In this document: positions 5,592 to 32,984 of the stretch, piece after piece
Layout: each line of letters starts with the position of its first letter
Numbering within the stretch: position 1 is the first letter of the stretch
Source: a virus
IMG/VR virus record: IMGVR_UViG_3300008259_000078
Span: 1 to 35,013 of that record
Length of the DNA stretch: 35,013 nucleotides
Reading direction: 5' to 3' (one strand)
Translations under genes and position numbers: made by a program
Notes under the pieces: generated by a model
Told to the model about the DNA's origin: nothing
Seen by the model: only the letters and a program-made list of their open reading frames with translations
Database searches by the model: none

Positions 5592-6037
5592 TGGCAATTG
5601 ACTTTCCTAGCACACCTACGTTAAACCAGACCTACACGTCTGGCGGTCAAACCTGGAAGTGGTCGGGCGTAGCTTGGGACTTAGTAGTAGTTCCACTAGT
5701 AGGTCCAACGGGTGCAACTGGCCCAGTTGGTCAACCTGGCCCGACGGGTCCGACAGGCGCTACTGGACCAATCGGTCTTTCTGGACCATTTACAACAATA
5801 AAGGGACAGTACCCGTCGCTGGCGGCTTTGCTGGCTGCGCACCCCACAGGGGCAGCAGGCGACGCCTACGTTTTAACAAATGGAGACTTGTACGTTTGGG
5901 TAGTAAGCACGAATCAGTGGGATAATGTAGGTAATACACTAGGCGCTACCGGACCGACCGGACCAATAGGCCTGCCTGGACCAATTGGACCGCAGGGCAC
6001 TGCTAATTTTTCAGTAGCCTGGTGGTTGGGAGGATAA
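5591..6037 (+). CDS. Short collagen-like tail fibre protein, 148 aa
   Basis: I chose the ATG at 5591 (TAATG overlap with the previous stop, purine-rich GGGCGAGG just upstream) over a start 18 bases further up, because the protein then begins with the adaptor module MAIDFPSTPTLNQ...WKWSGVAWD shared with two neighbouring fibres. The middle has GPT/GAT triplets around the module TTIKGQYPSLAALLAAHPTG...LYVWVVSTNQW, which is also in the first protein of the window. It ends in a short hydrophobic tail, FSVAWWLGG, with no head domain. Either it is a complete short spacer fibre or its head is supplied by the next genes. Confidence 0.8.
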   Translation: MAIDFPSTPTLNQTYTSGGQTWKWSGVAWDLVVVPLVGPTGATGPVGQPGPTGPTGATGPIGLSGPFTTIKGQYPSLAALLAAHPTGAAGDAYVLTNGDLYVWVVSTNQWDNVGNTLGATGPTGPIGLPGPIGPQGTANFSVAWWLGG

Positions 6038-17953: not shown

Positions 17954-18817
17954 CTAGCGTACCGCAACGGGGGCACTCCAGTTGTGCGGCAGTCTGTCCA
18001 GTGTTTTTAGGCTAGTGCTGTACGTACGCATCTTTACTTTTTTAGTGCCACTTTCAGCGTGTTTTATGTATTTATAGTACTCGCACAGGCTGTGCTCAAG
18101 TGCCCTGGCGTCGTATGCGACCGGACTGCCGGCTACCATCGGTCTGCTGTCTAGAGGTAACCCAGCGTCCACTGTCTGCAGCAACGTGTCCCAGTCGCCC
18201 TGTCCCGTGGCGGCACAGTGTGCTAGGCCTCGAACTGCTCCAGGCCCCAGCGAGGGCATAAACGCGCCGTGAAACGGTCCTCCTTGCCACACCAAGTCCA
18301 TTACTAGCTGGTCCACTAAAAAGTCACCAAATGAGTATATCTCCCTAAGCAACTTCCATGCCCTAGTAGTTGCACCGGCCTCCAAGGCTTGCGCCGTCTT
18401 CGTGGCGACCTCACGTAAATCACACAGTGCCTCGCACACCTTTTTTAGGTCTGGACAGCGTACATAAGCACCCGTGAAGTTTTTTTCTCTGGCTGATAAA
18501 AACGCGTACAGTGCTTTTGCGTCTGCTCTAGCCGTTGGCCAGTTATTAAAATGGGCCAGTATCGCCTCGTGCGTGTCAATTCGATTAAACGCTCTATAGC
18601 AGATAGTGTCCGCCACTAGCTTAGCGCTGTTCTCGCTATTAACCTGTACGTTATTGAAAAGGTAGACAGTGTGTCTGTCGAGCTCTCGCCAAAGGTTTGT
18701 GTAGTGGTACTGCCTGAGTTCGGCGGTATTTTTGCTCAAGCTTTCTACCGGCAGACCGTACGAGCGCTCTAGCCATAAAGCGTGCCGTGCCTGACAGAAC
18801 TCTACTAGTGTTAGCAC
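17954..18817 (-). CDS. Putative hypermodified-thymine enzyme (aGPT-PPlase / 5-hmdU kinase helical superfamily)
   Basis: 287 residues. The N-terminal part has FCQARHALWLERSYGLP, then QYHYTNLWRELDRHTVYL. This resembles the conserved R-H-x-I-x-x-x-R-x-x-G-x-P and Y-x-[FY]-[TC]-N-x-[WY]-R-E-x-D-R signature that I associate with alpha-glutamyl/putrescinyl-thymine pyrophosphorylases and the helical domain of 5-hydroxymethyl-dU DNA kinases. The usual P-W-T-x-D segment is missing, so this would be a divergent clade. The C-terminal part (GPFHGAFMPSLGPGAVRGLAHC and SLCEYYKYIKH) suits the all-helical fold. In known phages these proteins help build hypermodified thymidine. The start is GTG with AGGAG nine bases upstream, overlapping the end of the WhiB gene by seven bases. 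Family placement is from memory of the motif. Confidence 0.62.
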   Translation of the reverse strand: MLTLVEFCQARHALWLERSYGLPVESLSKNTAELRQYHYTNLWRELDRHTVYLFNNVQVNSENSAKLVADTICYRAFNRIDTHEAILAHFNNWPTARADAKALYAFLSAREKNFTGAYVRCPDLKKVCEALCDLREVATKTAQALEAGATTRAWKLLREIYSFGDFLVDQLVMDLVWQGGPFHGAFMPSLGPGAVRGLAHCAATGQGDWDTLLQTVDAGLPLDSRPMVAGSPVAYDARALEHSLCEYYKYIKHAESGTKKVKMRTYSTSLKTLDRLPHNWSAPVAVR

Positions 18818-19083
18818 GCTTTTTTACTCCTGGTCTTTTTTCTTTTGTAGGCACGTCGTTCTACTACAGACATTCCGCCCCAGATGCCGTGGGCTTCGTT
18901 GGTTTCTATCGCCCATTCCAAACATTCTTCTTTATGTTTGCAGGCACTGCACAGCTTTTTTGCTAGTCTCCAATTTTCTGGGTGCACTATCTCTCTGTCA
19001 CTTGTATCGTCCGCAAGGGGAAAGTAGGCTGAAGTGCCTATCTCTGCGCACAGTGGCTGCTCGAATGTCCACGGTGTTTTCAT
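18811..19083 (-). CDS. WhiB-family transcription regulator, 90 aa
   Basis: Compact, complete WhiB: Cys12, Cys45, Cys48 and Cys54 (C-x2-C-x5-C) for a [4Fe-4S] cluster, GIWGG (66-70), then a basic tail (RKKTRSKK) for DNA contact. I chose the ATG at 19083, with GGAGA about ten bases upstream, because an upstream in-frame start would add ten residues absent from typical members. Phage WhiB proteins are known to modulate host WhiB regulation (for example in mycobacteriophage TM4). It overlaps the aGPT/HMUDK-like gene, suggesting co-expression. Confidence 0.9.
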   Translation of the reverse strand: MKTPWTFEQPLCAEIGTSAYFPLADDTSDREIVHPENWRLAKKLCSACKHKEECLEWAIETNEAHGIWGGMSVVERRAYKRKKTRSKKAC

Positions 19084-19127
19084 GTGTGTCTTCTCCGTCC
19101 TGCATGTAACCACGCAAAAGTACTGTC

Positions 19128-19445
19128 TTAGTTGGTTTGAGTTGCTTGTTGCTCTTTCTCTTTTTCTATACTGCCAACCTCGTACCCGCAGCCTGCGTAT
19201 CCAGCAATGTCTACCCAGGTGTCTGGCTTGTACGGAATGCCAGGACCTACGTCTCTGGAAAGTTTAACCAAGATGAGTGCGGTTGCTACGTCACGTCTGC
19301 TAAACTTGCGTCCAAACGCCGTAGTCCAAAACTCTGCAATACGCCCAAAGTTTTCATACGGACCGCCGTAGTCGGCGTCTCTGGATCCAGAGATTAGACT
19401 TGCTGCCTCTCTGAGGGCCTCCACTCTCAAAGCGTCTTGGCTCAT
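19128..19445 (-). CDS. DUF6378-like phage protein, 105 aa
   Basis: Contains SGSRDADYGGPYENFGRIAEFW, then DVATALILVKLSRDVG and DTWVDIAGYAGCGYE. This matches the phage family pattern R-x-x-x-Y-G-x-P-x-x-N-F-x-x-I-A, D-V-A, K-x-x-R and D-x-W-x-D-I-A-G-Y-A, which I associate with DUF6378. The conserved acidic residues suggest an all-alpha nucleotide-pyrophosphohydrolase-like fold, but activity is not established. The start overlaps the stop of the preceding gene (ATGA). The C-terminal tail is charged. Confidence 0.75.
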   Translation of the reverse strand: MSQDALRVEALREAASLISGSRDADYGGPYENFGRIAEFWTTAFGRKFSRRDVATALILVKLSRDVGPGIPYKPDTWVDIAGYAGCGYEVGSIEKEKEQQATQTN

Positions 19446-19867
19446 ACTGCTGCTCTTTTCTCAAGCACGTGCGGTGAAAAATGTGTTCCGTCTAGGCCTG
19501 GCAGTACTCCGTCTACGCTGTTTACGATTACATCACCGTATCTAATTGCCACGACTTTAGCAATTCGTCCGTTGTGTAGCACCCCTGTGCTGCCAGTAAA
19601 TGCGTCTAGTTTTACTCGCACTTCATCTCCGACCTTAATCAGTCCCGGTCCGGCGGCAACCCAGTTAGAGCCTTTGTCTTCAACTAGTACGTGTCTCTTT
19701 GCTAGCTTAGAAAAGTAGCTCAAGGTTTGATCTACGGCATCTTCTTTCATTTTTTCAGACGCAACGTCCCACACCTCGAGCAGCTTTAGCACTGTGTCTC
19801 CCACTGCTTTTCGAGCCTTGACGCTCTGAAGCTGCTGTAAGACCCACTCTTTGTCTTGCTGTTTCAC
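19442..19867 (-). CDS. Hypothetical protein with C-terminal SH3/KOW-like segment, 141 aa
   Basis: The N-terminal half is helical (KEWVLQQLQSVKARKAVGDTVLKLLEVW). The C-terminal half is beta-rich, with GLIKVGDEVRVKLDAF, NGRIAKVVAIRYGDVIV and FSPHVLEKR, the pattern of a KOW/SH3-like barrel. GTG start on a GTGA overlap with the upstream gene. Function unknown; a small nucleic-acid-binding factor is possible. Confidence 0.7.
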   Translation of the reverse strand: MKQQDKEWVLQQLQSVKARKAVGDTVLKLLEVWDVASEKMKEDAVDQTLSYFSKLAKRHVLVEDKGSNWVAAGPGLIKVGDEVRVKLDAFTGSTGVLHNGRIAKVVAIRYGDVIVNSVDGVLPGLDGTHFSPHVLEKRAAV

Positions 19868-20340
19868 GTGTCACTCCGTTCTTTTTTCTTGTTTGGACAG
19901 ACAGACTCTCTGCACTGTTCTACGTCAAAGTCGTCTAGTGCTCTGCTGCACTGGTTGCACTTTACGCCTTCAGCCTTTACTTTGTAGCCCTCTAGCTGAC
20001 GTTTTTTGTTTTTTTCCATTTTTTGCAGGTAGAGCTTGTTTAGCTCTTCGTCTGTACCACCGGCAGCTACGATCATGTTTGCTATGAAGTGCAGCACGTC
20101 TACCGCTTCCTTGAGTATCTCTTCGCGGTCCGCGTATGGCGCGTCGTGCTGCCATGGCTTCCATGATATTGCTTGGCGCATCTCGGCTAGCTCGTCGTCT
20201 ACTGCAAGCATGTTCCAGCGCATGTACTCGACTAGGTTGCGAATGTTTTGTGGACGGTCTCCCTCGAACTTGTCAAACTCTATAAAGTACACTTCTTTCT
20301 GTAGCTTTTTTGTCATGTCTAGCCATTTGTTAAACAGCAT
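19864..20340 (-). CDS. MazG/dimeric dUTPase-like NTP pyrophosphohydrolase with C-terminal zinc ribbon
   Basis: 158 residues. The all-alpha NTP-PPase core shows E50-x2-E53 (DDELAEMRQAISWKPW) and E78-x2-D81 (KEAVDVLHFIANM), the metal-binding E-x-x-E...E-x-x-D set, plus KLYLQKMEKNKKRQLEGY at the end of the core. That combination is typical of phage dimeric dUTPase/MazG-like enzymes that hydrolyse dUTP or other dNTPs to dNMP and pyrophosphate. A tail with Cys128, Cys131, Cys143 and Cys148 looks like a small zinc ribbon. It fits the nucleotide-metabolism block with dCMP deaminase and the ThyA-like enzyme. AGGAG lies about ten bases before the ATG. Confidence 0.8.
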   Translation of the reverse strand: MLFNKWLDMTKKLQKEVYFIEFDKFEGDRPQNIRNLVEYMRWNMLAVDDELAEMRQAISWKPWQHDAPYADREEILKEAVDVLHFIANMIVAAGGTDEELNKLYLQKMEKNKKRQLEGYKVKAEGVKCNQCSRALDDFDVEQCRESVCPNKKKERSDT

Positions 20341-20342
20341 TT

Positions 20343-21380
20343 TTATACCACTCCTGTCAGTTGATTTTGTAGACTTAGTGCAAGTGTAATTTGAGCAGTG
20401 CTTTCTAACGTGCTAGGCACCGCTTCCGTGTACGCGACTTTTTGTCTAATAGCCATTTCGTACCGCTCTAGCTTGTCCATGCTCTCTACGGTGGACGGTA
20501 GCGTTACCCAGTCTGATCCGAGCCCAGCGGAGTGTCGCCAGTCGGTAAGCGCCGGTGTGTTTACTGCAAGACTCTGCGCTAGTTTGTTTGTCCACCAAGG
20601 AACGCCGTTTCTGTACGTGCTAACCAACAAACCAATTGCGCCCGCAATTGTGGCTAATGTTTCCAAGTCGCTACTTTTTGCGTGTCTCTTTACTGGCACG
20701 ACTGGGTAGTGCAGCTGCTTTTGTACTTCGTCAACCCAGTTGGTGCCTAGGGCAGTTGCGCACCACCAACTGGTTCCAAATTTGGCTGCAGTTGGTTTGA
20801 CGGTATCTCGCAGAATAAATGCGTCTAGGCAGATAGAAAAAAGACTGCTGTCCGAAAGCGCTGGAATCTGCGAAACTAGGTGCTCATCTTCTGACCATGG
20901 CAGCGCCGCGTACATAGTTCTAGCCCAAGAGTCACTCAATAAACTACGTACTGTTTTTACTAAACGTTCATAATGCGCTGGCTCTGCTGCTTTGGCGTGC
21001 TCGTATCTACTCTTGTAAAAAGATTTTACTAGGCTTTCTGGAGAACGGTCTACTGTTTTTAGGCTAGTCCAAATCTTGTATGGCTCGGGTGCGTCAATTA
21101 GAAGTGTAAGCCTAGGATCGTTCTTAAGAATGTCTAGAGACCCCAACGCTCCGTAGGCTCTGTGCGCAGAAGTACTTGTGAGAGGAGCTATACCTACCAC
21201 TACACTGTCGTACTTATCAAAACTTTTTTCTGTCCAGTCAAGAGAAGGAGGAAGCTGCTCTACGTTGTAGCCATGCTCAGTTAATGCAGTGTACATCAAA
21301 CTACTGAAGCCCTGTGTTTTTGCGTTTAATTTTCTAGACGTGTGCTGAGCAGTCATCCCTGTTAAAAGTATGTTTTTCAT
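20343..21380 (-). CDS. GT-B-like glycosyltransferase, possibly acting on DNA
   Basis: 345 residues. The N-terminal Rossmann-like half starts KNILLTGMTAQHTSRKL, with YDSVVVGIAPLTSTSAHRAYGALG and a beta strand LTLLIDAPEPYKIW. The C-terminal half has IAGAIGLLVSTYRNGVPWWTNKLAQSL followed by TPALTDWRHSAGLG, similar to the donor-binding region of GT-B enzymes (E/Q-x-x-A...P-V/A-x-x-D). Comparable proteins occur in actinophages near nucleotide-modification genes. The substrate is unknown; a modified base in phage DNA is suggested by the neighbourhood only. ATG on an ATGA overlap with the 74-residue gene; two bases before the dUTPase-like gene. Confidence 0.5.
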   Translation of the reverse strand: MKNILLTGMTAQHTSRKLNAKTQGFSSLMYTALTEHGYNVEQLPPSLDWTEKSFDKYDSVVVGIAPLTSTSAHRAYGALGSLDILKNDPRLTLLIDAPEPYKIWTSLKTVDRSPESLVKSFYKSRYEHAKAAEPAHYERLVKTVRSLLSDSWARTMYAALPWSEDEHLVSQIPALSDSSLFSICLDAFILRDTVKPTAAKFGTSWWCATALGTNWVDEVQKQLHYPVVPVKRHAKSSDLETLATIAGAIGLLVSTYRNGVPWWTNKLAQSLAVNTPALTDWRHSAGLGSDWVTLPSTVESMDKLERYEMAIRQKVAYTEAVPSTLESTAQITLALSLQNQLTGVV

Positions 21381-21601
21381 TTAACACCGTCTTCTAGACT
21401 GTCCAGCGCGTCTATAACTATTCTTGCTTCTGTAAAGCATATCTCCCACCATTTTTTATAGGACTCGTTGTCCATTGGCTCGATTGACGGCCACCAATAC
21501 TTCCAAAGCGCACGAGCACTTGCGGACAGGCGTGCATCCGTGCCTTCTGGCTCAGTAAGTTCCATAAGTATCTTTCTGTTAGAGTCAAGCGGTGTTGACA
21601 A
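21377..21601 (-). CDS. Small hypothetical protein, 74 aa as called; true start uncertain
   Basis: As called it begins with a TTG and a weak ribosome-binding site: LSTPLDSNRKILMELTEPEG...ALWKYWWPSIEP...SYKKWWEICFTEARIVIDAL, an acidic, Trp-rich helical protein. The frame is open upstream to inside the preceding gene and reads VECSSCRTCHDEYFK immediately before the TTG, a C-x2-C-x2-C-H cluster that looks like a real zinc site. No ATG, GTG or TTG precedes that cluster in the gap. The mature protein is therefore probably longer, with an unusual start or a frameshifted origin. Function unknown. ATGA overlap with the GT-B-like gene. Confidence 0.6.
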   Translation of the reverse strand: MSTPLDSNRKILMELTEPEGTDARLSASARALWKYWWPSIEPMDNESYKKWWEICFTEARIVIDALDSLEDGVK

Positions 21602-21654
21602 CTTAAAGTACTCGTCGTGGCACGTGCGACACGACGAGCACTCTACGTTTGTTG

Positions 21655-22197
21655 TTAGAACGGTGCGGCTGGTGCCTGCACATTTGCCGGTGCAGGCGCT
21701 GGTGCCGGCGCTGGTGCTGGTGCAGGCGCTGGTGCTGGTGCCGCTGCGGCTGGTGGCATTGCTGCAGCAGGTGCAGCAGCTGCGTTTACCGCGATATTAA
21801 AGTAGTTCTTGATCTCGTTTTTCTTCTGACCTTGCCATGTTCTGCTTCCAACAGTGGCACGAAACTTTTTGCCAACTATTGCTGACTCAATCTGTGCATT
21901 GGTTGGGTTTTGTGCAAAGTAGTCTCTGTTTAAGCCAAGTGCGTACATCTTACGGAAGAAGATGCCAAGAGCTGCCTGGTTTTCAGGAGAAATAACTAGA
22001 TTGTCCCAGACTAGTCGCTTGTTATGCGCTCCGCCTTGAACTTGTGCCTTGATCGCAAACATTGTTTTACCAGACTGCGAAACCTTTGCGGTGGCTTCTA
22101 GTACTACGAGATCGTAGTCACCATCTGGAAGTGGATCGTAACTGCCGCCGGCGTCTCCGGCGTCTTTGACTAGGTCGCCCCAGTTGAGAGTGCTCAT
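21655..22197 (-). CDS. DUF669-like ssDNA-binding protein with Ala-Pro linker
   Basis: 180 residues. The N-terminal 130 residues (WGDLVKDAG...YDPLPDGDYDLVVLEATAKVSQSGKTMFAIKAQVQGG, then FRKMYALGLNRDYF, VGKKFRATVGSRTWQGQKKNEIKNYF) resemble phage DUF669/SSB-like OB-fold proteins. The tail is almost only Ala and Pro (about residues 140-175) and ends APAAPF. Bacterial SSB proteins end in an acidic tip with terminal Pro-Phe that recruits partners; here Pro-Phe is kept but the acids are not. AAAGGAG lies four to five bases before the ATG. It directly follows the Sak4-like ATPase, a pairing common in phage recombination modules. Confidence 0.72.
   Translation of the reverse strand: MSTLNWGDLVKDAGDAGGSYDPLPDGDYDLVVLEATAKVSQSGKTMFAIKAQVQGGAHNKRLVWDNLVISPENQAALGIFFRKMYALGLNRDYFAQNPTNAQIESAIVGKKFRATVGSRTWQGQKKNEIKNYFNIAVNAAAAPAAAMPPAAAAPAPAPAPAPAPAPAPAPANVQAPAAPF
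21668..21775 (-). repeat. Low-complexity Ala-Pro coding repeat
   Basis: Imperfect tandem repeats of a short GGTGC(T/A/C)GG(T/C)GC-type unit on the plus strand, encoding the (Ala-Pro)n linker of the SSB-like protein on the minus strand. Such tracts are prone to in-frame length changes. Confidence 0.8.
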
Positions 22198-22206
22198 GTT
22201 TCTCCT

Positions 22207-22986
22207 TTAAGCGCTTAGCGCGGTTGTGGTTGGTTGTGTTGCTGCTTGTTGCTTTGGACCAAAAACTATGTCTAGCATGTTTTCAATCCCAAGGTTTTCT
22301 TGCTCTACGATTTTGCCGAGGCGTCCCTGAACGCGCTCGCCTGCCTCGTATTGGTTTGTTCTCTCTATGTACATACGTCGAACTTTGAGAGAGCCAACTT
22401 GTGTAGGGTCGGGATTAGGAAACTCCTCAACCGTGATAGCTCCGAGCAAATCGTAGAAGTACGGAGCTTGAATTGCTAGTTGTCCTTGCAGGTAAGGACG
22501 GTATCTGCCGTCAGTATTAGGTCTGGCCATCGCGGTCAGAACTACAGCTTCTAGTGGCGCAGTCGGGTGCATAGTTAGGTCGCGTAAGTCACGTAGCAAT
22601 GCTCCCATGTGACGAAGTAGCTCTCCCCACTGCTGCTGGCTCATCTGCTGCTTTCCAGCTATGTTCTCAAGACACTTTACTTGCAACTCACTCACCGAGT
22701 CAATGATGAGAGACTTGAATTGGTGTTTGCCAATTTGAAGCCACTGATAAGCTTTTAGCACGGTGTCGTAGTCACGAACTTGCACTACACACGTGTCCCA
22801 AGTGCCGTCTGCTATTGGTGGTTCTTCACGCAGTGGATCCCAGTATTTAACGACTATAGGTAAAAATCTATGGCCGCCTTCGACGTCTAGCATTAGCCTC
22901 GGATATGGAGCTGTTACCGCAAAAGTAGACTTACCAACTTTACTTTCACCGTACACCATCATCGTCAGCGATCTCTGTACCGTCAT
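22207..22986 (-). CDS. Sak4-like RecA-fold ATPase (AAA_24 type)
   Basis: 259 residues. Walker A is GESKVGKST (residues 13-21), followed by MLDVEGG; Walker B is SLIIDSV (about 92-98), with a following SELQVKCLE; a sensor-like VVLTAMARP lies near 150. This is the arrangement of phage AAA_24/Sak4 single-strand annealing or recombination ATPases, which act with an SSB. A short Thr/Ala-rich tail ends the protein. AAAGGAAG lies ahead of the ATG within the end of the nuclease gene; the following SSB-like gene starts nine bases after the stop. The role would be DNA pairing during replication or repair. Confidence 0.82.
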   Translation of the reverse strand: MTVQRSLTMMVYGESKVGKSTFAVTAPYPRLMLDVEGGHRFLPIVVKYWDPLREEPPIADGTWDTCVVQVRDYDTVLKAYQWLQIGKHQFKSLIIDSVSELQVKCLENIAGKQQMSQQQWGELLRHMGALLRDLRDLTMHPTAPLEAVVLTAMARPNTDGRYRPYLQGQLAIQAPYFYDLLGAITVEEFPNPDPTQVGSLKVRRMYIERTNQYEAGERVQGRLGKIVEQENLGIENMLDIVFGPKQQAATQPTTTALSA

Positions 22987-22989
22987 GTG

Positions 22990-23922
22990 TCATTCACTTC
23001 CTTTCTTGTTGTCGTTTTCGTAGTAGGCATACGGGTCGGCGACCTCGTACATTTCACTGATTGCTTGTTCGGCGGCGCTTCCGTCGTCGATCATGTTACA
23101 TACAGCGAAAAACTGACACTTCCAATTGCAGTCTCTGCTCGGCCGCGGGTAGGCAACAAAGTTTGGATCTGCACCGGCATCTAGCGATTTTCTAGTCTGC
23201 ATGATGTCAGCTATGACACCGTGAAGTCTAGCCCAGAAAGACCTTAAAGTAAATACGTTGTGTCTTACTTCTATCTGCTGGTAGAAAGGTGGCTTAGCCG
23301 TAGCGGCTCTCTTTACTTTTTTAAGCATAGTAAATATGCCCCCGTCGCATCGCTCATCTGCGCTGTTTTTAGACGACTCTAAGATCATGTAAGTCATGAT
23401 CTGCTCGTTCATGTGCGCCATACGGGTAAAGTCTGTAAATGAACCGCCAACAGTCTTAAAGTCGCGGAACATCCGTACTCCGTCTCCCTTACGGCGTACT
23501 CTCATATCCAGTTTTCCCTGTAGCTCTACTGCACCGCCAAAGAGGGGCATGGAAATTTTTTCTTCGCTCGACACGAACTCTAGCTCGGCGTCGACACCTT
23601 CCTCTTCTACCCACTGAAGGTAGCCTTCTAACATTAGTCGGCCTAGCTCTGCTTCCCCGTCTAAGTCCGTGGTGTCACGCATAGTTTCAATCAACTTTTG
23701 TCGGTCCGTCTCGATCAGCTTACTGTGTGCGTCTAGCAGCGGCACACCGTTTGCGTAGTAGTCTTCCAAAGCCGAGTGAATGCGACTTCCTAGTGCAAGT
23801 GCACCGGTCATATCGCGCTGTGCTGGCTGTAGTCTTCTGTAGTACGAGAGCCACCACTTTCTACGGCAGTCTTTGAACGTTTGGATCTCCGAGTTGGAAA
23901 GCCTTAGTACGTTTTCATCCAT
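22990..23922 (-). CDS. Cas4/RecB-like PD-(D/E)XK nuclease with Fe-S cluster
   Basis: 310 residues. N-terminal LSNSEIQTFKDCRRKWWLSY places Cys19; G45-x3-H49 follows. The nuclease core has GKLD (Asp139) and RDFK (Asp154, Lys156), then EQIMTY (Gln174). The C-terminal cluster is Cys265-x3-Cys269-x5-Cys275 (CNWKCQFFAVC). Cys19 plus these three is the iron-staple layout of Cas4/AddB-type exonucleases, which resect DNA ends to give single strands. It fits the adjacent Sak4-like ATPase and SNF2 helicase in a recombination module. GGAGA lies six to seven bases before the ATG. No cas genes or CRISPR array are in the window, so a CRISPR role is not supported. Confidence 0.87.
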   Translation of the reverse strand: MDENVLRLSNSEIQTFKDCRRKWWLSYYRRLQPAQRDMTGALALGSRIHSALEDYYANGVPLLDAHSKLIETDRQKLIETMRDTTDLDGEAELGRLMLEGYLQWVEEEGVDAELEFVSSEEKISMPLFGGAVELQGKLDMRVRRKGDGVRMFRDFKTVGGSFTDFTRMAHMNEQIMTYMILESSKNSADERCDGGIFTMLKKVKRAATAKPPFYQQIEVRHNVFTLRSFWARLHGVIADIMQTRKSLDAGADPNFVAYPRPSRDCNWKCQFFAVCNMIDDGSAAEQAISEMYEVADPYAYYENDNKKGSE

Positions 23923-23949
23923 TTTTTCTCCCAGTGTCTCTGTAGTCTT

Positions 23950-25752
23950 TCATAGTCTTCCTGCCTTTTCGTCTTTTAGCATGGCGAGTAGTTTTGCTCT
24001 ATCTCGAACTACTTCGTCAAAATTGTCTGCTTTAGTGTCTAGCACCTCTATCACACGCTCTTCAACCGTATTTTCAGTTACGTAGTCAATTATCGAGATT
24101 GAGTCATGCACTTCTGAGCCAATGCGGTGGACTCTGTCCATTGCTTGTTTGTAGTCGACTAACGACCACGGTCGTTGTAGCATTACCAGCCTTCGCGCTG
24201 CAGTAAGCGTAATCCCCACACCGCCGGCTTGAGCGGTAAACAACAGCCATTTAGTGTTGCCAGACTGAAAGTCGTCAATTGCCTGCTGGCGTTCGTCTTC
24301 ATCTTGTGCACCGGTGACTAGTCCGTGCCTTATGTCCAGCTTGGTAAGGCGCGCGCTGAGCAGCTCTATTAACTGCCTTGACACGGCGCACACAGCTACA
24401 GAATCTTCGCCAAAGTCACCGTTTTCTATGTCCTCTATCAGTGCGTCTACTTTGCATGAAGGCTCCACTAAAACTGCTTTAGTCTCTCCGCTCTCCGTGT
24501 CAGTGCTTATAGTTGCGTATGAGCTCGCAAACTGTAAAAGTCTAGTAGTCTGAGTGAGAGCGCTGGGCGCCGTTAGAGCTTCTCCATTTTCTAGCTCAGC
24601 TATCATCGTGTCGCGCATTTGTTCATACGCTTTTTTCTGCTTAGTAGACATTTCAACGTCTCTGCGCTCTTTCATTACTGGTGGCAGCCATTTGAGAACT
24701 TGCTGCTTTAACATTCGACGCATGCGTGGATTTATTGACTTATAGAACTCTTCTTGCATGTGCGGCTTAACACCAAGTACAGTCATACCACCGAACGCAT
24801 TAAGCATAGTGTCGACCATGCGGTCTACCCACTTTGTTTTGCTTGGCCATTCCTCGGGTGACAGCCAGTGCAAAATTGCCCATAGATCAAGTACGTTATT
24901 CGCAATAGGAGTACCCGTGAGAGCAAATCTAAACGGAGCGTCTCCAGTTGCTGCCCACAGCGCTCTAGTCTGTTTGCTGCGCGGGTCTTTTGACCGGTGA
25001 ATTTCGTCTGCTATGACCGTATTAAAGTCTATGTTGTTCAGCTCTCTTGGTCTGACTTCGCAGCGCGCTTCGGTCACTCTTTCGTCGTGTCCACCGTACT
25101 CTGGACTTCTTGCCAGCGCTATTGAACCGTAAGCTGCAAGTTTAGAGTGTGCGCGTAGCGACTCCCAGTTAATGATGTACACCTGCGCGTCAGGCTCTTC
25201 TAGCTGTCTGCGTCTCTGCAGCGCAGAGCCTTTGACTACTTGAGTTACTACGCCTGGCCACCATATTTCAAACTCTCTTGCCCAGTTCTTTTTCAGCGTG
25301 TTTGGGCAGACTATTAGTGCTGGAAACACTGCCTCGCCGCGGTCGTGGAGCAGCTTCATAGTGTGTATTGCCTGAGCAGTCTTTCCAAGCCCTGGCTCGT
25401 CGGCCAGCAGTGCCCTGCGTGCTGTAGCTAAAAACTGTACGCCAGCTCGTTGATAAGGAAACAATTTTTCTGCGCCATCACCGTCTTCGGCCTCGCGGAG
25501 GGCGAGTGACGGAGTGATTCTGTCAGAGACTTCTCTTGCAGCCCATTCGCCCAGTGCGTCTCCAATAGTGAGCTGGTCGCGAAATGTGGACCTTAAAGCA
25601 AGACAGCTACTCCAACTAAGGGGTACACGCCAAACTTTGTCCGTGGTCGACCACGTGGCTCCTGGGATGCTCTTACAGAGCTCCTTGTAGCGCCATTCCG
25701 CCGTTATTAGAATGGACCCTTTTTTAGGGTCTATGTCTACTGTAACTGACAT
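23950..25752 (-). CDS. SNF2-family (SMARCAL1/HARP-like) DEAD/H helicase
   Basis: I chose the ATG at 25752 with GAGGAG seven bases upstream (600 residues) over a GTG 39 bases further up without such a site. After about 90 residues of a HARP-like N-terminal region (SILITAEWRYKELCKSIPGATWSTTDKVWRV) come FPYQ (98-101), Walker A DEPGLGKT (118-125), DEIH (249-252), ALTGTPI, and helicase C motifs including LLFTAQAGGVGITLTAA and QAMDRVHRIG. SNF2/HARP proteins reanneal or remodel forked DNA; in phages they accompany recombination-dependent replication. It is flanked by the Fe-S nuclease and the RuvC-like gene. No DnaB-type helicase or primase is seen in the window. Confidence 0.88.
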   Translation of the reverse strand: MSVTVDIDPKKGSILITAEWRYKELCKSIPGATWSTTDKVWRVPLSWSSCLALRSTFRDQLTIGDALGEWAAREVSDRITPSLALREAEDGDGAEKLFPYQRAGVQFLATARRALLADEPGLGKTAQAIHTMKLLHDRGEAVFPALIVCPNTLKKNWAREFEIWWPGVVTQVVKGSALQRRRQLEEPDAQVYIINWESLRAHSKLAAYGSIALARSPEYGGHDERVTEARCEVRPRELNNIDFNTVIADEIHRSKDPRSKQTRALWAATGDAPFRFALTGTPIANNVLDLWAILHWLSPEEWPSKTKWVDRMVDTMLNAFGGMTVLGVKPHMQEEFYKSINPRMRRMLKQQVLKWLPPVMKERRDVEMSTKQKKAYEQMRDTMIAELENGEALTAPSALTQTTRLLQFASSYATISTDTESGETKAVLVEPSCKVDALIEDIENGDFGEDSVAVCAVSRQLIELLSARLTKLDIRHGLVTGAQDEDERQQAIDDFQSGNTKWLLFTAQAGGVGITLTAARRLVMLQRPWSLVDYKQAMDRVHRIGSEVHDSISIIDYVTENTVEERVIEVLDTKADNFDEVVRDRAKLLAMLKDEKAGRL

Positions 25753-25832
25753 GCACTGCTCCTCGTCTTTCGTCTTTGTAGATACTACCACGGTTTAACA
25801 AAAAATTTTAATCTATTTACGGCAGTATCTTT

Positions 25833-26333
25833 CTAGCCCTCCAATAGAGCTCGGGGGACCCAGCCGGCTTTAACCAGCCTCAACAGACCGTGCCGTATGG
25901 CGTCCAGCGCGTGGCCATCTCCCCCTACGTGCCAGTAGCCAAGCTTCTTTAGCGCTTGGTTCGGGAACATGTTTTTAGCGTCTGACGGTGCCTGCATTGC
26001 CAACCCAGGTAGATAGTGACCTACTCTGTTAAGATGCTTTTCCATGTCTTTCAGCGCTTGTTTTAGAATGCCTATCTGCTCTAGGCTGTATGGCGCTTGG
26101 CTGTTTTTTACCGTCTGAGCGTTTATGGTAAACCGCTCACACGCAACCAGTAGCCTGTCGGCACCTCCTTGTACGCTTACGTATATCATCCCTCGAATGG
26201 TGTCCGCGTACGTGTCAAAGTCAGTTTCGTAGGAATGTAGAAGCGTCGGAACTCCATTCTGATACTGGAATAGAGCTATACCACTCAGCTTGCCTGGGTC
26301 TACAGCCAGCACAAACGTGTTTAGTTCTGTCAT
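25833..26333 (-). CDS. ruvC: RuvC-like Holliday junction endonuclease
   Basis: 166 residues from the ATG that overlaps the polymerase stop (ATGA), chosen because longer in-frame starts lie inside the polymerase gene. RNase H-like fold: VLAVDPGKLSGIALF gives Asp12, LLVACERF gives Glu66, and GHALDAIRH gives Asp144, the acidic triad of RuvC-type resolvases. Length is close to bacterial RuvC (about 170). It would cut branched DNA intermediates before packaging, in line with the recombination genes next to it. The gene symbol is a family-level name only. Confidence 0.8.
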   Translation of the reverse strand: MTELNTFVLAVDPGKLSGIALFQYQNGVPTLLHSYETDFDTYADTIRGMIYVSVQGGADRLLVACERFTINAQTVKNSQAPYSLEQIGILKQALKDMEKHLNRVGHYLPGLAMQAPSDAKNMFPNQALKKLGYWHVGGDGHALDAIRHGLLRLVKAGWVPRALLEG

Positions 26334-28153
26334 TTGTATTTGTCTCCCCACGTCTCTAGCGGTCCTTCTACACCGGCAGTTAGTGGAACTTCCCAGTTTT
26401 CTCTGGTAGTCATGCACTCACGAACGGTCTCCATGACATCTCTAGCGTCTTCTCTACGTGCCTGCAGCACAATTTCGTCATGCACCGGCACAATTAAATT
26501 TTCTGTAAGGTCGGCTTGGTCTAGCTTTATTAAGTTTTGTTTGAAGACCTCCGCGGCTCCGCCCTGTATTAAGTAGTTTACCAAAGTGTACACTCGGTCT
26601 TCGTCACAAGGCAATCTTCGTCCGGTCCACGTGTACACGTAGCCCTGGCCTTCGTTTTTTAATCTGCGCATACCAGCATCCTCTATTTTTCTTTGAAACA
26701 TGGCCATGCCCGGGTAGCGCTGGTCAAATGCGTCTGAGACCGCCCGCATCTGCGCCTCCGGCACTCCCGCAGTCAAGGCTTGTTTTGGAACTCCAGCGCC
26801 GTACAGTCTTCCGTATACAGTTCCTTTTATCAAGTTTCTGCGCTTGTCGGTTCTCATCATGCTGGGGTCTTTGTATATCTCTCTGCCTATTTCTGTAAAA
26901 GGATCCGAGCCGGTAGCATCTGCACGATTGAACAGAGTTATCAAGTTTGAGTCCGTAGACAGGGAAGCAAACATTCTAAACTCGACTTGGTCAAGATCTG
27001 ATGTGATAATTACATGGTCTTCGTCTTTAGGTATAAACGCAGTTCTGACTACTTCGTCGCCTTTAGGCAGTGTCTGCAAAGCTGGGGCCTGAATAGACAT
27101 TCTAGAAGTTCTAGCTCCGAGAGTCTTTACTGACGGGTGCACAAATCCGTTTACGTTGTCGTTTAGAAAGTTTGCAAAGTATGTAGTAGCTAGTTTGTCT
27201 GCCTTGCGCTGCTTAAGCACCAAAGAAGCTAACTCTTTTACCTGCTCATTTCCCTCTATTTGCAGCAGCTTTAGCTGGTCTTTAGTGCACGCCTTTTGTC
27301 CGCTCGGCGTCAACTCTGTAATCTCTGCGCCTAAACTTTCAAAGAGCCTAGTCAGCTGTATGTTGCTGGTGATAGAAACGCCGTTGTATCTGTTGTCTGC
27401 CCAGTCTTTTACTTGCGTAGAGTAGTGTATTAACTCGTCGTACTTTTTGCGTGAGTACTCTAAGTCAATTTTTGCGCCGTTTATCTCCATGCGCGTAACT
27501 ATCTTTCTTGCCGCCATCTCTAGTTCGTATGGCCTATGGTACTTTCCATCTGGTCCACAGTCTTTGTAGAACTGGTGCCACAGCCGCATAGTAAGCACGC
27601 AGTCGAGTGCGCCGTACGCCCAGTACGGTTGAAAGTTGGTAGGCACTGTTCCCCAGGTCCAGCCGTTCTTGGCCATCTCTACGTCTAAGTTTTCTTGCAG
27701 CGCAACGGCCTTGCCGTCTATGTGTAGTGCCGCAAGACGCTTGAGTGCGCCAGAGCCAAGCGGGTCAATGATGTGCGCCATGATCATGGTGTCGTGCGCT
27801 TGGTGCCAGGGCAGCTTCCAACGAGACTGTACGTCAAACCACCGCGCCTCAAAAGCGATGTTGTGAAATACTATTGGTCCATCGTAGTTTTCCATTGCTT
27901 GATAGAAAACGCCGCCCCACTCGTTCCAAGGTATCGCCCAGGCCTGTTCGGCGTCTCCAACCTGCACGAGCCGCAGCTGCCCGTGCCAAGGCGACAGCGC
28001 ATGTGCACGCACGCCGCCAGGACGTTCTCCGGTTTCAGTGTCCACCGCAATAGCGTTTAGCGGCCTGCGTTGGCTGATCCAGTGAATAAACTCAGAAGCT
28101 TTTTCAGCAGTGTCCACCAAGTGCAGCTTAACTTCGTTCATGGAAATTGTCAT
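26330..28153 (-). CDS. polA: Family A DNA polymerase with 3'-5' exonuclease
   Basis: 607 residues from the ATG that overlaps the dCMP deaminase stop (ATGA). The proofreading domain has AVDTETG (Asp38, Glu40), VFHNIAFEARWFD and a Y-x3-D (Tyr180, Asp184). Polymerase motif A is SDLDQVEFR (Asp386), motif B is R439-x3-K443-x3-Y447-x3-Y451-G, and motif C is PVHDE (His558-Asp559-Glu560). Tyr at 447, the position of E. coli Phe762, is also found in T7 DNA polymerase. There is no 5'-3' exonuclease domain, as usual for phage replicative Pol A. It is the core replicase of the block, co-transcribed with nucleotide-metabolism genes. Confidence 0.93.
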   Translation of the reverse strand: MTISMNEVKLHLVDTAEKASEFIHWISQRRPLNAIAVDTETGERPGGVRAHALSPWHGQLRLVQVGDAEQAWAIPWNEWGGVFYQAMENYDGPIVFHNIAFEARWFDVQSRWKLPWHQAHDTMIMAHIIDPLGSGALKRLAALHIDGKAVALQENLDVEMAKNGWTWGTVPTNFQPYWAYGALDCVLTMRLWHQFYKDCGPDGKYHRPYELEMAARKIVTRMEINGAKIDLEYSRKKYDELIHYSTQVKDWADNRYNGVSITSNIQLTRLFESLGAEITELTPSGQKACTKDQLKLLQIEGNEQVKELASLVLKQRKADKLATTYFANFLNDNVNGFVHPSVKTLGARTSRMSIQAPALQTLPKGDEVVRTAFIPKDEDHVIITSDLDQVEFRMFASLSTDSNLITLFNRADATGSDPFTEIGREIYKDPSMMRTDKRRNLIKGTVYGRLYGAGVPKQALTAGVPEAQMRAVSDAFDQRYPGMAMFQRKIEDAGMRRLKNEGQGYVYTWTGRRLPCDEDRVYTLVNYLIQGGAAEVFKQNLIKLDQADLTENLIVPVHDEIVLQARREDARDVMETVRECMTTRENWEVPLTAGVEGPLETWGDKYK

Positions 28154-28617
28154 ACTGTCTGCACTACTTCTATGCTGCACTTGCGTAGATAAGCAATAAC
28201 GTCGTCTGGGTTTCTGTGCGAGTCGTTTTTGACTTTAAGCAGCACTACTCTGGTTAACCCAGAGTTTGACACAGCTTTTGCACAGTTCATGCAGATAGAG
28301 CTGTTTACGTACAGAGTTCCGCCCTCTACTCTAGACCGGTCTACGTACATCAGGGCGTTCATCTCGGCGTGTATAGCCGGACACTCGTCGTAGCTCTTGT
28401 CGAGCGGCGCCTCTCCTCTAGCTCGTTTGCACCAGTTTATGCAGTCCGAGTTTTCTGGCCAAGAAGCGGCGGGACCGTTGTATCCAGTAGACGCAATTCG
28501 ACCGTTTAGCGAAACTATGACCGCGCCAATTCGAGCACGTGAGCAACGACTTCGACGCCCGATAGCTACAGCTACGCTCATCCAAGTGTCGTCCCACGAC
28601 GGTCTAGGTGTGTTCAT
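28150..28617 (-). CDS. Deoxycytidylate (dCMP) deaminase
   Basis: 155 residues from the ATG at 28617. An upstream in-frame start would add 29 Arg-rich residues encoded inside the preceding gene. Zinc site: His83 in IHAEMNAL with catalytic Glu85, and Cys109/Cys112 in SSICMNC, where the usual Pro before the first Cys is Ile. GYNGP (45-49) and IGAVIV are typical of the family. It converts dCMP to dUMP, feeding dTTP synthesis. T4 similarly carries both a deaminase and a dCMP hydroxymethylase. The stop overlaps the polymerase start. Confidence 0.88.
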   Translation of the reverse strand: MNTPRPSWDDTWMSVAVAIGRRSRCSRARIGAVIVSLNGRIASTGYNGPAASWPENSDCINWCKRARGEAPLDKSYDECPAIHAEMNALMYVDRSRVEGGTLYVNSSICMNCAKAVSNSGLTRVVLLKVKNDSHRNPDDVIAYLRKCSIEVVQTV

Positions 28618-28628
28618 TTGCGTGTTGT

Positions 28629-29510
28629 TTACTTTACTTCTGGTTCTGCGGGTGCGGCTTTGGCATTTTTCTCTATCGCCGAGATCATGGCATCTGCATA
28701 CCACTTTTCATTTTCTGCTAGTCTGTCTAGCACGCTTGGATTTATCGCTGCTTGCAGACATAGAAGTGCTGACGACTCTACTTCTCTCCAGTTTCTGCCC
28801 TTGATTGCTGGAATAGCCTCCGGCTGTTTTTCTGGTGCATGCAGCTTTTCTGCCTTCTCAAAATGCTGCTCGTATAGATGCAGCGATCCAACGTGGTGTG
28901 CGTAGACGCCTGGCTCTATGTCTAGCACTGAAGCGATAGCAATTTGTACTCTTGTAAACTGGAACCAGTCGTACGCTGCGCCAAGCCAAGCGTCGTTTGA
29001 CCGCATGTACACGCTCATGTTTAGCTTGCCGTCTCTGATACGAAACTGGTGCAGCACCGTGCATGGATAGTCTTTTTTTCCCTTTAGCAGGTCTAGGTTT
29101 GGGTTCCACAGTGTAACTACAGCCTGCCTGGTGTCTTTGTCGGCGATTAGACGCTCGATTACGTGGTCGTACTGCCCCCTTGTTCTTACGCCGTACGGTC
29201 CGTGAAAGGTGTTGTTTGGTTCTAAGAACTGTGCAAAGTTTGGACTGACTGCTACGGTCAACGCAGGGTGCGTTATGCCAGACAACAACTGGCACGCCTC
29301 AACCGCGCCTATGCCTGCTACTGCGCCGCGACCCGTTCCAAGCGGCAGCGTGTTTTGTACGTCGTTGATGTACACCACTGCGTCTTCTAGCTCAACGGTG
29401 TTCATTCCTCTTGGCGATGTCTTTTTTCCGTTTTTTAGGACCCACTGAACCATTTCTGTGTATCCAGTTACTCCGTCTTCTACCTCGATCGCATTTACGC
29501 GAGAACCCAT
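28629..29510 (-). CDS. ThyA-type pyrimidine (hydroxy)methyltransferase, predicted dCMP-preferring
   Basis: 293 residues. The catalytic region aligns to E. coli ThyA without gaps at an offset of four: Cys150 (Ec Cys146, in DYPCTVLHQF), Arg170-Ser171 (Ec 166-167), Asp173, Gly177, His211 and Tyr213 (Ec His207, Tyr209, in GSLHLYEQH). The residue matching Ec Asn177 is Asp181 (GAAYDWFQF). In this family Asn selects dUMP, while Asp at that place is found in T4 dCMP hydroxymethylase, and the corresponding L. casei N229D change favours dCMP. So dCMP hydroxymethylation or methylation is more likely than dTMP synthesis. AAAGGAGA lies six bases before the ATG. It overlaps the kinase gene. Confidence 0.85.
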   Translation of the reverse strand: MGSRVNAIEVEDGVTGYTEMVQWVLKNGKKTSPRGMNTVELEDAVVYINDVQNTLPLGTGRGAVAGIGAVEACQLLSGITHPALTVAVSPNFAQFLEPNNTFHGPYGVRTRGQYDHVIERLIADKDTRQAVVTLWNPNLDLLKGKKDYPCTVLHQFRIRDGKLNMSVYMRSNDAWLGAAYDWFQFTRVQIAIASVLDIEPGVYAHHVGSLHLYEQHFEKAEKLHAPEKQPEAIPAIKGRNWREVESSALLCLQAAINPSVLDRLAENEKWYADAMISAIEKNAKAAPAEPEVK

Positions 29511-30529
29511 GATGTCTCCTTTGCCCAGTTAGTACTTCTGTTTTTTGGTGTTTCTCCACGCGCTAGAGCGGCTATTGCTGCTCCGTACTCTTGCTGTTGT
29601 CCCGCGTAGAATCTTTTTATGTGCTGAGGGTGCGAAGTAACAGCAGTTAGTTCTACTTCTGCTTTTTTACATATTGCTTCGGCGTTTCTTCCAAGTGCAA
29701 TTACTGTCGGAGAACCGAGCGTACTCCATGACGAGTGCAGGACTTCTGGAGATAGCTCGCTGCCGTTTAGTATTCCAGCAGTAGGCCAAAAGTTGTCTTC
29801 TAAGGCACCCAGTAAAAAGTCACCGCTGTTTCCGTCAACTGGTATAAATGGCAACATTGTTGCTTTTCCGTACCACCTGTTTTGATTACGCTGGTCTCCA
29901 ATCAACAAAGTTTTTGGTTTAGGCGCACCGATGTAAAACGGCATGTTTGCTAAATGCTTTACATCGTTTTCTACTTGAAAAGCGGTATCAACAATCATGT
30001 CAGCAAGTGCGGCTAGTTCGTTTAGATCGTCCGGGTTTGGCTGCAGCTTTCCAGTAAACACGGCTGATTTAGTTACTGTTTTTTCGTGTAAGTCGATGAG
30101 CGCGCCTAGCTCGTCTGACTTCACATAGTCATCGCCACGGCTGTCTAGTCGTCTGGTGACTACGTCTAGTGGTTGATACAGCCAAAACAGTGCGGCACCG
30201 CGGGACATTAAAAACATCTCTGTCCATCTCCACCCAGCCGCGCCTAAAAGACCGTATCCGTCGCTGTCGCTGCTCGGTCGCTTTAGCGGAGCATAGGTGG
30301 CTTCTCCCCAGTGCCATCTATCGGCAACTATCAAGGAGTCAGGGTGCGCAATGTTTTCTATGGACAGTACATAGTCTTTTAGCGCCCAGCGTCTGTTGAG
30401 TTCCTCTGGCTTACTTTTGTGAAAAACATGCACTGGACTTCCAGTGTCTAAATTGCACAAAAGTAGTTTTATTTCTTCTACCAATGTGCTCTTCCCAGAG
30501 GCGTCTGTGCCCTCAATTATGATAAACAA
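29495..30529 (-). CDS. dNMP (thymidylate-like) kinase fused to a UDG-like domain
   Basis: 344 residues, TTG start with AAGGA six bases upstream. Residues 1-190 are a P-loop nucleotide kinase: FIIIEGTDASGKST (Walker A, 7-15), the D-R-W motif at 70-72 of thymidylate-kinase-like proteins, and an R-x-x-x-R-G-D-D lid-like segment (126-134). Residues about 198-310 look like the uracil-DNA glycosylase fold: TLLIGD (207-212), PFIP...GNSGDFLLGAL, AGILNG, PTVIALGRNAEA and SHPQHIKRF (299-307), the order of UDG family 4-type motifs. The usual catalytic residues are not evident, so the second domain may bind rather than excise. It heads the operon segment after a TATAAT box and overlaps the ThyA-like gene by 16 bases. 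Confidence 0.72.
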   Translation of the reverse strand: MFIIIEGTDASGKSTLVEEIKLLLCNLDTGSPVHVFHKSKPEELNRRWALKDYVLSIENIAHPDSLIVADRWHWGEATYAPLKRPSSDSDGYGLLGAAGWRWTEMFLMSRGAALFWLYQPLDVVTRRLDSRGDDYVKSDELGALIDLHEKTVTKSAVFTGKLQPNPDDLNELAALADMIVDTAFQVENDVKHLANMPFYIGAPKPKTLLIGDQRNQNRWYGKATMLPFIPVDGNSGDFLLGALEDNFWPTAGILNGSELSPEVLHSSWSTLGSPTVIALGRNAEAICKKAEVELTAVTSHPQHIKRFYAGQQQEYGAAIAALARGETPKNRSTNWAKETSWVLA

Positions 30530-31603: not shown

Positions 31604-31771
31604 TTACATTCCTCTCTCGTTTATCATGGTTTTTACTTCATCTAGTTTGGCTTTAAGCGCTAGCACCTGCGAGTACTCTAGCTTTGGCTCGCCCAACGCC
31701 ATTCGAACGGGACGCAGTAGCTGATCGCTGTCTAAATACTTGTACGTGTAGACACCGTCGTTTTCACTCAT
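31604..31771 (-). CDS. Small hypothetical protein, 55 aa
   Basis: Short gene fitting exactly between two neighbours: its ATG overlaps the stop of the oxygenase-like gene (TAATG) and its stop lies four bases before the next ATG. Sequence MSENDGVYTYKYLDSDQLLRPVRM then SQVLALKAKLDEVKTMINERGM, a beta hairpin-like start and a C-terminal amphipathic helix. No family recognised; support comes from the tight gene packing. Confidence 0.65.
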   Translation of the reverse strand: MSENDGVYTYKYLDSDQLLRPVRMALGEPKLEYSQVLALKAKLDEVKTMINERGM

Positions 31772-32346
31772 TACATCGTTCCTATCTGTTTGCCAAGCTT
31801 TTCTTTCGCCCTTATGGTGTCTAGATAGCTAGGTCCATGTGTATAGTACCAGTGATCTGGCTCTACGAAGTGAAAAAAGACCATAGCTACTTGATTAGTG
31901 GCGGGCGAGGGGAACTGCTCTCGCCAGTGCCATTGATCGTTGCCAAAGTACGCAAGTGACTGATTTGGTCTGAGCATGTACGGTCGGTCAGCCACCCAGA
32001 GCGCCCAGGGCTCATTTTGGTAGATGCACATGTCTATAGTGTACGTACAGGCGTTATTGTCCCGGTGCTTAAACAGGTTTGCTCTCTCTGTTTCATAGTG
32101 TGCAAATAGTGCGTAAGAAGGTAGAAGAGTGTCACTGTCAAAAGTCTCTCTGGCCAGCGGCAGCACCGATTCAAATGCCTGCATAAGGAGCGGCTCGGCC
32201 TGCGCACTCAAACAAAAACGTCCAAATCCCGGGTCCCAAGACATCGAGCCGGTACCGCGTTTCTTGAGCACGTCTACTAGACTTTTGTGCATGCCTATGT
32301 CTAGTGTTTCCTCGATTATTACCGGGTCTGGTCTGCGTCTGCCCAT
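31771..32346 (-). CDS. 2OG-Fe(II) oxygenase-like protein, 191 aa
   Basis: I chose the ATG at 32346, which overlaps the stop of the upstream oxygenase (TAATG), over a start 51 bases further up. A cupin-like core shows FKHRDNNACTYTIDMCIYQ with a His94-x-Asp96 pair, LRPNQSLAYFGNDQWHWREQFP with a candidate distal His140, and VAMVFFHFV as the closing strand. This is the H-x-D...H iron site of 2-oxoglutarate oxygenases, though the usual downstream Arg for 2-oxoglutarate is not clear. The substrate is unknown. Tandem placement with a second oxygenase suggests linked function. Confidence 0.65.
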   Translation of the reverse strand: MGRRRPDPVIIEETLDIGMHKSLVDVLKKRGTGSMSWDPGFGRFCLSAQAEPLLMQAFESVLPLARETFDSDTLLPSYALFAHYETERANLFKHRDNNACTYTIDMCIYQNEPWALWVADRPYMLRPNQSLAYFGNDQWHWREQFPSPATNQVAMVFFHFVEPDHWYYTHGPSYLDTIRAKEKLGKQIGTM

Positions 32347-32984
32347 TAGTGAAACCACCCAACCACACAGTAACGCAGGCCACTTATGACCGGCCACACT
32401 TTGTGTGTGTACACGTACGTCGAGGGAAAAAACACGACTTGGTTTGTTTCTGGTTTTATTTTTAGATTGAACTGATCAAATTCTATCTCGCCACCCTCGA
32501 AGTCTGAATTTAGGTAGAAACTCATCGACACACGACGTTGAAACATTTTGGCTGCGTCAGCGTGTCTGTCAAAGTGCTGCCCCGTGCCGTACTTTAGAAG
32601 CTGCCAGCCCTCGTTGTCTAGATCGCCACCTATTCCAAACTGCCTAGAGTAGGCGTCTAGCAGCGGCAGTAGACTCGCGTCTAGCAGGTCGCTTAGTACC
32701 GCCAGTACACCACCCGTGGCCTTTAGCTCCGGCGTTTTTGCGAAAGCCGGTATAGACACCGTCTCGACGTCGCGAATTGACCTAGTGAGAGCACCGGCTC
32801 TGTTTTGAATGCCACTGCCCTGCTGGCCTGGTTGCCAGATCAGTTGACGCATCTCTGTAAGACCGTCTAAATCGCGTATAAGCCCGGCGGGATCCCGCAT
32901 AACGTTGGAGTAGCTGACTATGCCCGGAGCCAATAGTTTTCCTTCTATTTGACTCGGGTTAGCGCCTACTGTCACTGTGTTCAC
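32346..32984 (-). CDS. 2OG-Fe(II) oxygenase, prolyl-4-hydroxylase-like
   Basis: 212 residues with a full double-stranded beta-helix signature: YGTGQHFDRHAD (His141, Asp143), RRVSMSFYLNSDFEGGEIEF (151-169), VVFFPS (183-188), then YTHKVWPVISGLRY with distal His194 and Arg204. This order (H-x-D, Y-L-N-x-x-F-x-G-G-E, F-P, H-x-V-x-P-V-x-x-G-x-R-Y) is that of prolyl-4-hydroxylase-type enzymes, which hydroxylate proteins using O2 and 2-oxoglutarate. Such genes are known in cyanophages. The GTG start overlaps the preceding stop (GTGA). The collagen-like fibres of the same phage are a plausible but unproven substrate. Confidence 0.85.
   Translation of the reverse strand: MNTVTVGANPSQIEGKLLAPGIVSYSNVMRDPAGLIRDLDGLTEMRQLIWQPGQQGSGIQNRAGALTRSIRDVETVSIPAFAKTPELKATGGVLAVLSDLLDASLLPLLDAYSRQFGIGGDLDNEGWQLLKYGTGQHFDRHADAAKMFQRRVSMSFYLNSDFEGGEIEFDQFNLKIKPETNQVVFFPSTYVYTHKVWPVISGLRYCVVGWFH

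Follow-up and report, generated by a model that had tools for sequence, protein, structure and literature searches.

A predicted T4-like hydroxymethylcytosine pathway, with a candidate GT-B glycosyltransferase, in an uncultured tailed phage

The stretch of DNA considered here (the window), IMG/VR record IMGVR_UViG_3300008259_000078, is a 35,013-base linear fragment from a tailed phage, and its minus strand carries the genes of a candidate pathway for modifying a pyrimidine base in phage DNA. A preliminary description, made from the sequence alone, had proposed that four open reading frames form a module with the logic of phage T4, and all four lie on the minus strand where it placed them: a ThyA homologue (28629-29510), a P-loop deoxynucleoside monophosphate (dNMP) kinase (29495-30529), a protein resembling GT-B glycosyltransferases (20343-21380) and a protein of the PF18723 family (17954-18817). 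Two further minus-strand genes, missed by that description, encode a pyrophosphatase (19864-20340) and a deoxycytidine monophosphate (dCMP) deaminase (28150-28704). The analysis supports a pyrimidine-modification module of T4-like logic, and its best reading is a T4-like pathway that replaces cytosine with 5-hydroxymethylcytosine (hmC).

The phage probably infects freshwater actinobacteria. An actinobacterial host is suggested by WhiB-like genes in the window and by the closest relatives that have names, Actinomycetia phage DSL-LC01 and Gordonia phages. A sister genome of 117,837 bases (G009) spans nearly the whole window, and other close contigs exist. Related contigs share a conserved gene order: kinase, ThyA, dCMP deaminase, PolI, RuvC, helicase, nuclease, RecA, single-stranded DNA-binding protein (SSB), glycosyltransferase and pyrophosphatase.

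The ThyA assignment, including the aspartate at position 181 to which the preliminary description drew attention, is well supported. The protein matches PF00303 (E 1.9e-25), and in an alignment of 11 ThyA sequences that includes T4 gp42 the catalytic Cys150, together with Arg170, Ser171, Asp173, His211 and Tyr213, is invariant. Asp181 occupies the position of Asn177 in Escherichia coli ThyA. This is the residue that reads the base: aspartate reads cytosine, asparagine reads uracil. The equivalent residue is aspartate in DSL-LC01, in Gordonia phages GMA2 and GodonK, in Microbacterium phage Neferthena and in T4 gp42, and aspartate is also common to the syntenic relatives of the window; it is asparagine in PaMx11, FP1 and Brevibacterium phage LuckyBarnes. 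The best match among solved structures (PDB) is MilA, a CMP 5-hydroxymethylase with the same aspartate. The window enzyme is thus predicted, from its sequence, to be a dCMP 5-hydroxymethylase of the T4 gp42 / MilA type.

The neighbouring kinase gene encodes an N-terminal P-loop domain that matches a PHROG thymidylate kinase family (E 1e-10), and it is predicted to act on 5-hydroxymethyl-dCMP (hm-dCMP). It is 35% identical to a kinase that adjoins a gp42-like ThyA in another contig (G047); the latter kinase, used as query, gave no match to T4 gp1. While the kinase assignment of the preliminary description stands, the uracil-DNA glycosylase (UDG) domain it had placed in the same protein does not: the C-terminal 150 residues are conserved, but of a UDG only motif-like residues are; a search with PF03167 at E ≤ 10, positive in 13 of 14 control genomes, failed to detect it, and a PDB profile search likewise gave no match. 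This conserved C-terminal domain has no assigned family. The deaminase matches PF00383 (E 1.7e-18); the copy in the sister genome is 155 amino acids long, and the true start of the window gene is probably near 28617.

The pyrophosphatase is an all-alpha protein that is 29% identical to T4 gp56 over 136 amino acids (E 4e-13). Both proteins contain PF08761, and the gp56 motifs WKxW, E-x-VD-x-x-HF-x-x-N and R-Q-x-x-GY are aligned in the window protein, the gene for which adjoins the GT-B gene. T4 gp56 is a dCTP/dUTP pyrophosphatase that keeps plain deoxycytidine (dC) out of T4 DNA. On this homology the window protein is a predicted dCTPase/dUTPase, and its gene is the piece that would turn a capacity to make hm-dCMP into replacement of dC.

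If these genes form a pathway for replacing dC, then two loci that are far apart on the genome – the kinase-ThyA-deaminase block and the pyrophosphatase gene – are expected to be gained and lost together. Both are present in at least 20 contigs and neither is present in five (Fisher P = 2e-5, with kinship between contigs ignored). In these five contigs (G017, G018, G023, G024 and G036; loci L227, L228, L229, L230 and L231), which lack ThyA, kinase, dCMP deaminase and pyrophosphatase, the two genes that flank the block elsewhere are present without it, and the gp56-like gene approximately 8 kb away is missing too; no PF00303 gene was found in their available sequence. On a tree built from RecA plus the nuclease, the pyrophosphatase requires at least three changes; ThyA, among the contigs that allowed scoring, requires two or more, each in step with the pyrophosphatase; the independent concordant changes are too few for a sign test to reach significance. 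The co-occurrence in relatives expected by the preliminary description holds for the most part, in that GenBank phages with the GT-B-like protein come from the groups with the best ThyA and kinase matches. It fails at two points: the GT-B gene is kept by the five contigs that lack the others, and PF18723 is, within this phage group, restricted to the window's own clade. Two of the five (G017 and G023) carry a gene for a 263-amino-acid protein at the ThyA position, the copy in G017 being a DUF6065 protein. A search of module-less phages for a TET/JBP dioxygenase, another possible source of hmC, gave no match, and the controls were likewise without a match. Taken together, the Asp-type ThyA, the gp56-like pyrophosphatase and the co-inheritance of the latter with the kinase-ThyA-deaminase block make cytosine the most likely target base.

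Neither Pfam nor PHROG offers a match to the protein encoded by 20343-21380. Its AlphaFold2 model (predicted local distance difference test, pLDDT, 93.6) matches GT-B glycosyltransferases in Foldseek, which bears out the fold assigned to it previously; the five best PDB matches include a glycosyltransferase from phage HY126 and the DNA-bound alpha-glucosyltransferase (AGT) of T4. Profile comparison with a GT4 protein from a Gordonia phage gave no signal. By sequence, the protein lies outside the known DNA glycosyltransferase families that were searched. Its family has no name; it has 168 matches in IMG/VR and occurs in 12 GenBank phage records, all of them DSL-LC01 or Gordonia phages and thus from the groups in which the best ThyA and kinase matches are also found.

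The slot occupied by this gene, between SSB and the pyrophosphatase, contains one or two GT-B paralogues in relatives, and what accompanies them varies. In DSL-LC01 a UDP-galactopyranose mutase gene lies between the two paralogues; in G028 (L236) and G035 (L237) a gene for a GT4-like protein and three others precede the GT-B gene, these three in G028 matching APH-type kinase, HAD hydrolase and nucleotidyltransferase families. These additional genes look like a swappable sugar-supply cassette, and those in G028 and G035 possibly encode a phage-borne nucleotide-sugar pathway. The mutase of DSL-LC01 has been read as a cell-wall gene (PMC10611076); an alternative role would be the supply of sugar for DNA.

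The protein encoded by 17954-18817 had been likened to both aGPT and HMUDK proteins. Its family membership is clear (PF18723, E 1.8e-28), but the earlier label was imprecise: the protein consists of the helical domain only, without a P-loop. The name of the family (HMUDK_hel, formerly aGPT-Pplase1) follows Pfam and a secondary source (PMC9476957): in M6-like phages the gene called aGPT-Pplase1, here taken as the same family, adjoins a nucleotide kinase gene (PMC9476957). The structural model (pLDDT 87) resembles other PF18723 proteins; its match to amino acid:DNA transferases is weaker, and that to DNA glycosylases very weak (E 0.25). A profile comparison with E. coli endonuclease III gave no signal. 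The 118-kb sister genome contains no match to an amino acid:DNA transferase and no separate P-loop 5-hydroxymethyluracil (hmU) DNA kinase, the kinase profile matching only the dNMP kinase, and that weakly.

A PF18723 protein next to an Asp-type ThyA had seemed paradoxical, such that either the target base was new or one assignment was wrong. The family had been expected to indicate thymine. In a survey of 80 IMG/VR contigs with PF18723, in which the ThyA residue was read where a ThyA gene lay in the flanks, Asp-type ThyA was found in three separate PF18723 lineages – the window's clade with G046 and G047, the Neferthena group and a single contig (L133) – and one of the enzymes is gp42-like. 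This removes the paradox and indicates that PF18723 is not specific to thymine. In G047 approximately 4 kb lie between the PF18723 gene, which is 45% identical to that of the window over the part present, and a series of genes encoding pyrophosphatase, dCMP deaminase, a ThyA 53% identical to T4 gp42 and a dNMP kinase related to that of the window. In L133 the PF18723 gene follows an Asp-type ThyA gene and precedes genes for UDP-glucose dehydrogenase, an epimerase-family enzyme and a TAGT glycosyltransferase; in LuckyBarnes, where ThyA is Asn-type, it follows two TAGT glycosyltransferase genes. A dNMP kinase of the window type accompanies PF18723 in five of seven contigs with Asp-type ThyA and in none of 64 with Asn-type ThyA, counts to be read with the contigs not being independent, one kinase coming from a wider search and the profile possibly missing other kinases. 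The P-loop kinase or amino acid:DNA transferase shows the opposite tendency (0/7 Asp-type versus 22/64 Asn-type contigs), which is not significant (P = 0.09). The residues W-A-N before G-P-G in PF18723 were considered as a signature separating hmU partners from hmC partners; they are suggestive in some clades, are missing from many Asn-type contigs and were not used.

PF18723 is thus associated with hydroxymethyl-pyrimidine DNA in general. From the matches of its structural model we hypothesize a base-flipping or transferase role: beside a P-loop kinase it may be the DNA-binding half of that kinase, and beside glycosyltransferases it may serve those. A bolder proposal, which we regard as rather unlikely, is that PF18723 serves hydroxymethyl-pyrimidine DNA in general, as adaptor or transferase, and here installs or directs a modification of hmC that goes beyond simple glycosylation, such as phosphorylation or amino-acylation; this would be the equivalent, for cytosine, of thymine hypermodification. 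One known 5-hmU DNA kinase accepts hmU but not hmC (PMC6457204), and phosphorylated hmC in this phage would therefore be new.

These elements combine into a scheme in which the phage makes hmC DNA by the strategy of T4 and then decorates the hmC, and on balance we consider this scheme probable. The Asp-type ThyA homologue would convert dCMP to hm-dCMP, which the adjacent kinase would phosphorylate; the gp56-like pyrophosphatase would remove dCTP (and dUTP), leaving hm-dCMP to be inserted by the polymerase. Once the DNA has been replicated, a sugar from a host-made nucleotide sugar would be moved onto hmC by the GT-B protein, a step that the modelled fold and gene context make likely. PF18723 would either bind or flip hydroxymethylated DNA as partner of the GT-B protein, or add a group itself.

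Several observations sit uneasily with this scheme. The template modelling (TM) scores of the GT-B protein to known glycosyltransferases are modest (0.36-0.40), which supports the GT-B fold class and not the function, and a profile search against the beta-glucosyltransferase (BGT) of T4 gave no signal. Furthermore, because phages that lack the hydroxymethylation genes still keep the GT-B gene, the acceptor of its product may be something other than hmC: module-less phages would have either another modified base or a second acceptor for the GT-B protein. The hmC pathway may thus be real, with the GT-B protein glycosylating the host surface or a virion component and hmC remaining plain or being decorated only through PF18723. 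This combination, which fits both the retained gene and the lack of a sequence match to DNA glycosyltransferases, we judge distinctly less probable than glycosylation of hmC: the GT-B gene adjoins the pyrophosphatase gene whenever the latter is present in this phage group, it occurs among GenBank phages only in groups with Asp-type ThyA, and DNA-bound AGT is among its five best fold matches. Of a different kind is the gene for a C5-cytosine DNA methyltransferase (PF00145) that accompanies the module in many relatives (for example, L002, 22956-24200) and is lacking in the window's clade; such an enzyme is odd if all cytosine is already hydroxymethylated. Finally, the PF18723 contigs surveyed have mostly Asn-type (hmU) ThyA, which in many of them is found together with both a P-loop kinase and an amino acid:DNA transferase.

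This last observation is what would be expected if the target were thymine, with the window ThyA making hydroxymethyl-dUMP despite its aspartate and PF18723 being part of an incomplete or diverged thymine hypermodification pathway. Asp181 itself, the lack of a P-loop 5-hmU-DNA kinase and of an amino acid:DNA transferase from the sister genome, and the Asp-type ThyA in the closest PF18723 relatives outside the clade make this most improbable. Nearly as improbable is that the genes merely supply nucleotides and that the phage DNA is unmodified. Deaminase, ThyA, thymidylate kinase and dUTPase are the four functions of the textbook route to deoxythymidine triphosphate (dTTP), and simple dTTP supply predicts the co-inheritance of the four genes just as replacement of dC does; it is the aspartate that disfavours it, this being the cytosine form where a dTMP synthase would need asparagine. 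It is also disfavoured by the PF18723 gene that the block contains, since such genes are characteristic of DNA-modification loci.

Comparison with known systems places the predicted hmC pathway closest in logic to the hmC glucosylation of T4 (gp42, gp1, gp56 and AGT/BGT), with which it shares an Asp-type dCMP hydroxymethylase, a dNMP kinase, a gp56-type dCTPase/dUTPase, a dCMP deaminase and a GT-B protein. It differs in that the kinase is apparently of another family, to judge from the related kinase of G047, the GT-B protein shows no sequence link to BGT, and PF18723 is added. The system works like that of T4 without being a member in every part, the transferase being outside the DNA glycosyltransferase families searched. 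The RB69-type arabinosylation of hmC (PMC6024577) likewise combines hmC made by a gp42 homologue with a diverged GT-B transferase and proposed nucleotide-sugar supply genes. Relatives of the window resemble it in having sugar-supply genes beside the GT-B gene, whereas the slot in the window has none, and the transferase families are unrelated by sequence search. The thymidine hypermodification systems of the M6/PaMx11 type also have a PF18723 protein near a ThyA homologue, but theirs is an Asn-type ThyA, and it is accompanied by a P-loop kinase as well as an amino acid:DNA transferase; no counterpart of these three was found here. Neferthena and LuckyBarnes have PF18723, ThyA and a glycosyltransferase in one region, and Neferthena shares in addition the Asp-type ThyA, a thymidylate kinase and a nucleotide pyrophosphohydrolase; their transferases, however, are of the TAGT type (PF20691), and the LuckyBarnes ThyA is Asn-type. 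DSL-LC01 and Gordonia phages GMA2, GodonK and Forza share ThyA, kinase, deaminase, pyrophosphatase and the GT-B family in conserved order. They differ in having two GT-B paralogues and, in the three examined, no PF18723; DSL-LC01 has, unlike the window, the UDP-galactopyranose mutase and a C5-methyltransferase.

The predicted pathway would extend hmC-based DNA to freshwater phages of a large uncultured group and to cultured Gordonia phages. The analysis also brings forward a candidate phage glycosyltransferase family in which the slot for sugar supply is swappable. PF18723, although its name refers to thymine, may have a part in the chemistry of cytosine too, and the annotation of such phages would then have to change. 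In a defence screen, the newly validated defence domains included a thymidylate synthase and a 5-hydroxymethyluracil kinase (PMC13092281), so bacteria may turn components of these modules against phages.

Two further minus-strand genes lie between those for PF18723 and the pyrophosphatase. That at 19128-19445 encodes a DUF6378 protein (PF19905, E 1.1e-22) conserved as a neighbour in many relatives; that at 19442-19867, the immediate neighbour of the pyrophosphatase gene, has no Pfam or PHROG family and is present in 62 of 79 related loci.

Elsewhere in the window, a 2-oxoglutarate-Fe(II) oxygenase (PF13640) is encoded on the minus strand at 32346-32984, directly adjoined by a minus-strand gene of no family (31771-32397). 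Translations of four plus-strand reading frames (63-1229, 2437-4221, 4398-5591 and 5573-6037) contain collagen-like G-P-T-G repeats, and the plus-strand block to which they belong is probably the tail block. Given such an oxygenase and collagen-like Gly-Pro-Thr repeat proteins in one phage, prolyl hydroxylation of tail proteins is conceivable. Two large plus-strand proteins (10259-12226 and 12576-15419) have, in translation, repeated W/G-YN-x-YGQLG motifs like those of RCC1-type repeats. The minus-strand protein at 33719-34921 has, in its C-terminal part, CIVGSTLV...MLTHN motifs like those of a Hint (hedgehog/intein) domain, and the sister genome encodes a version of 1,732 amino acids (32711-37909, minus strand).

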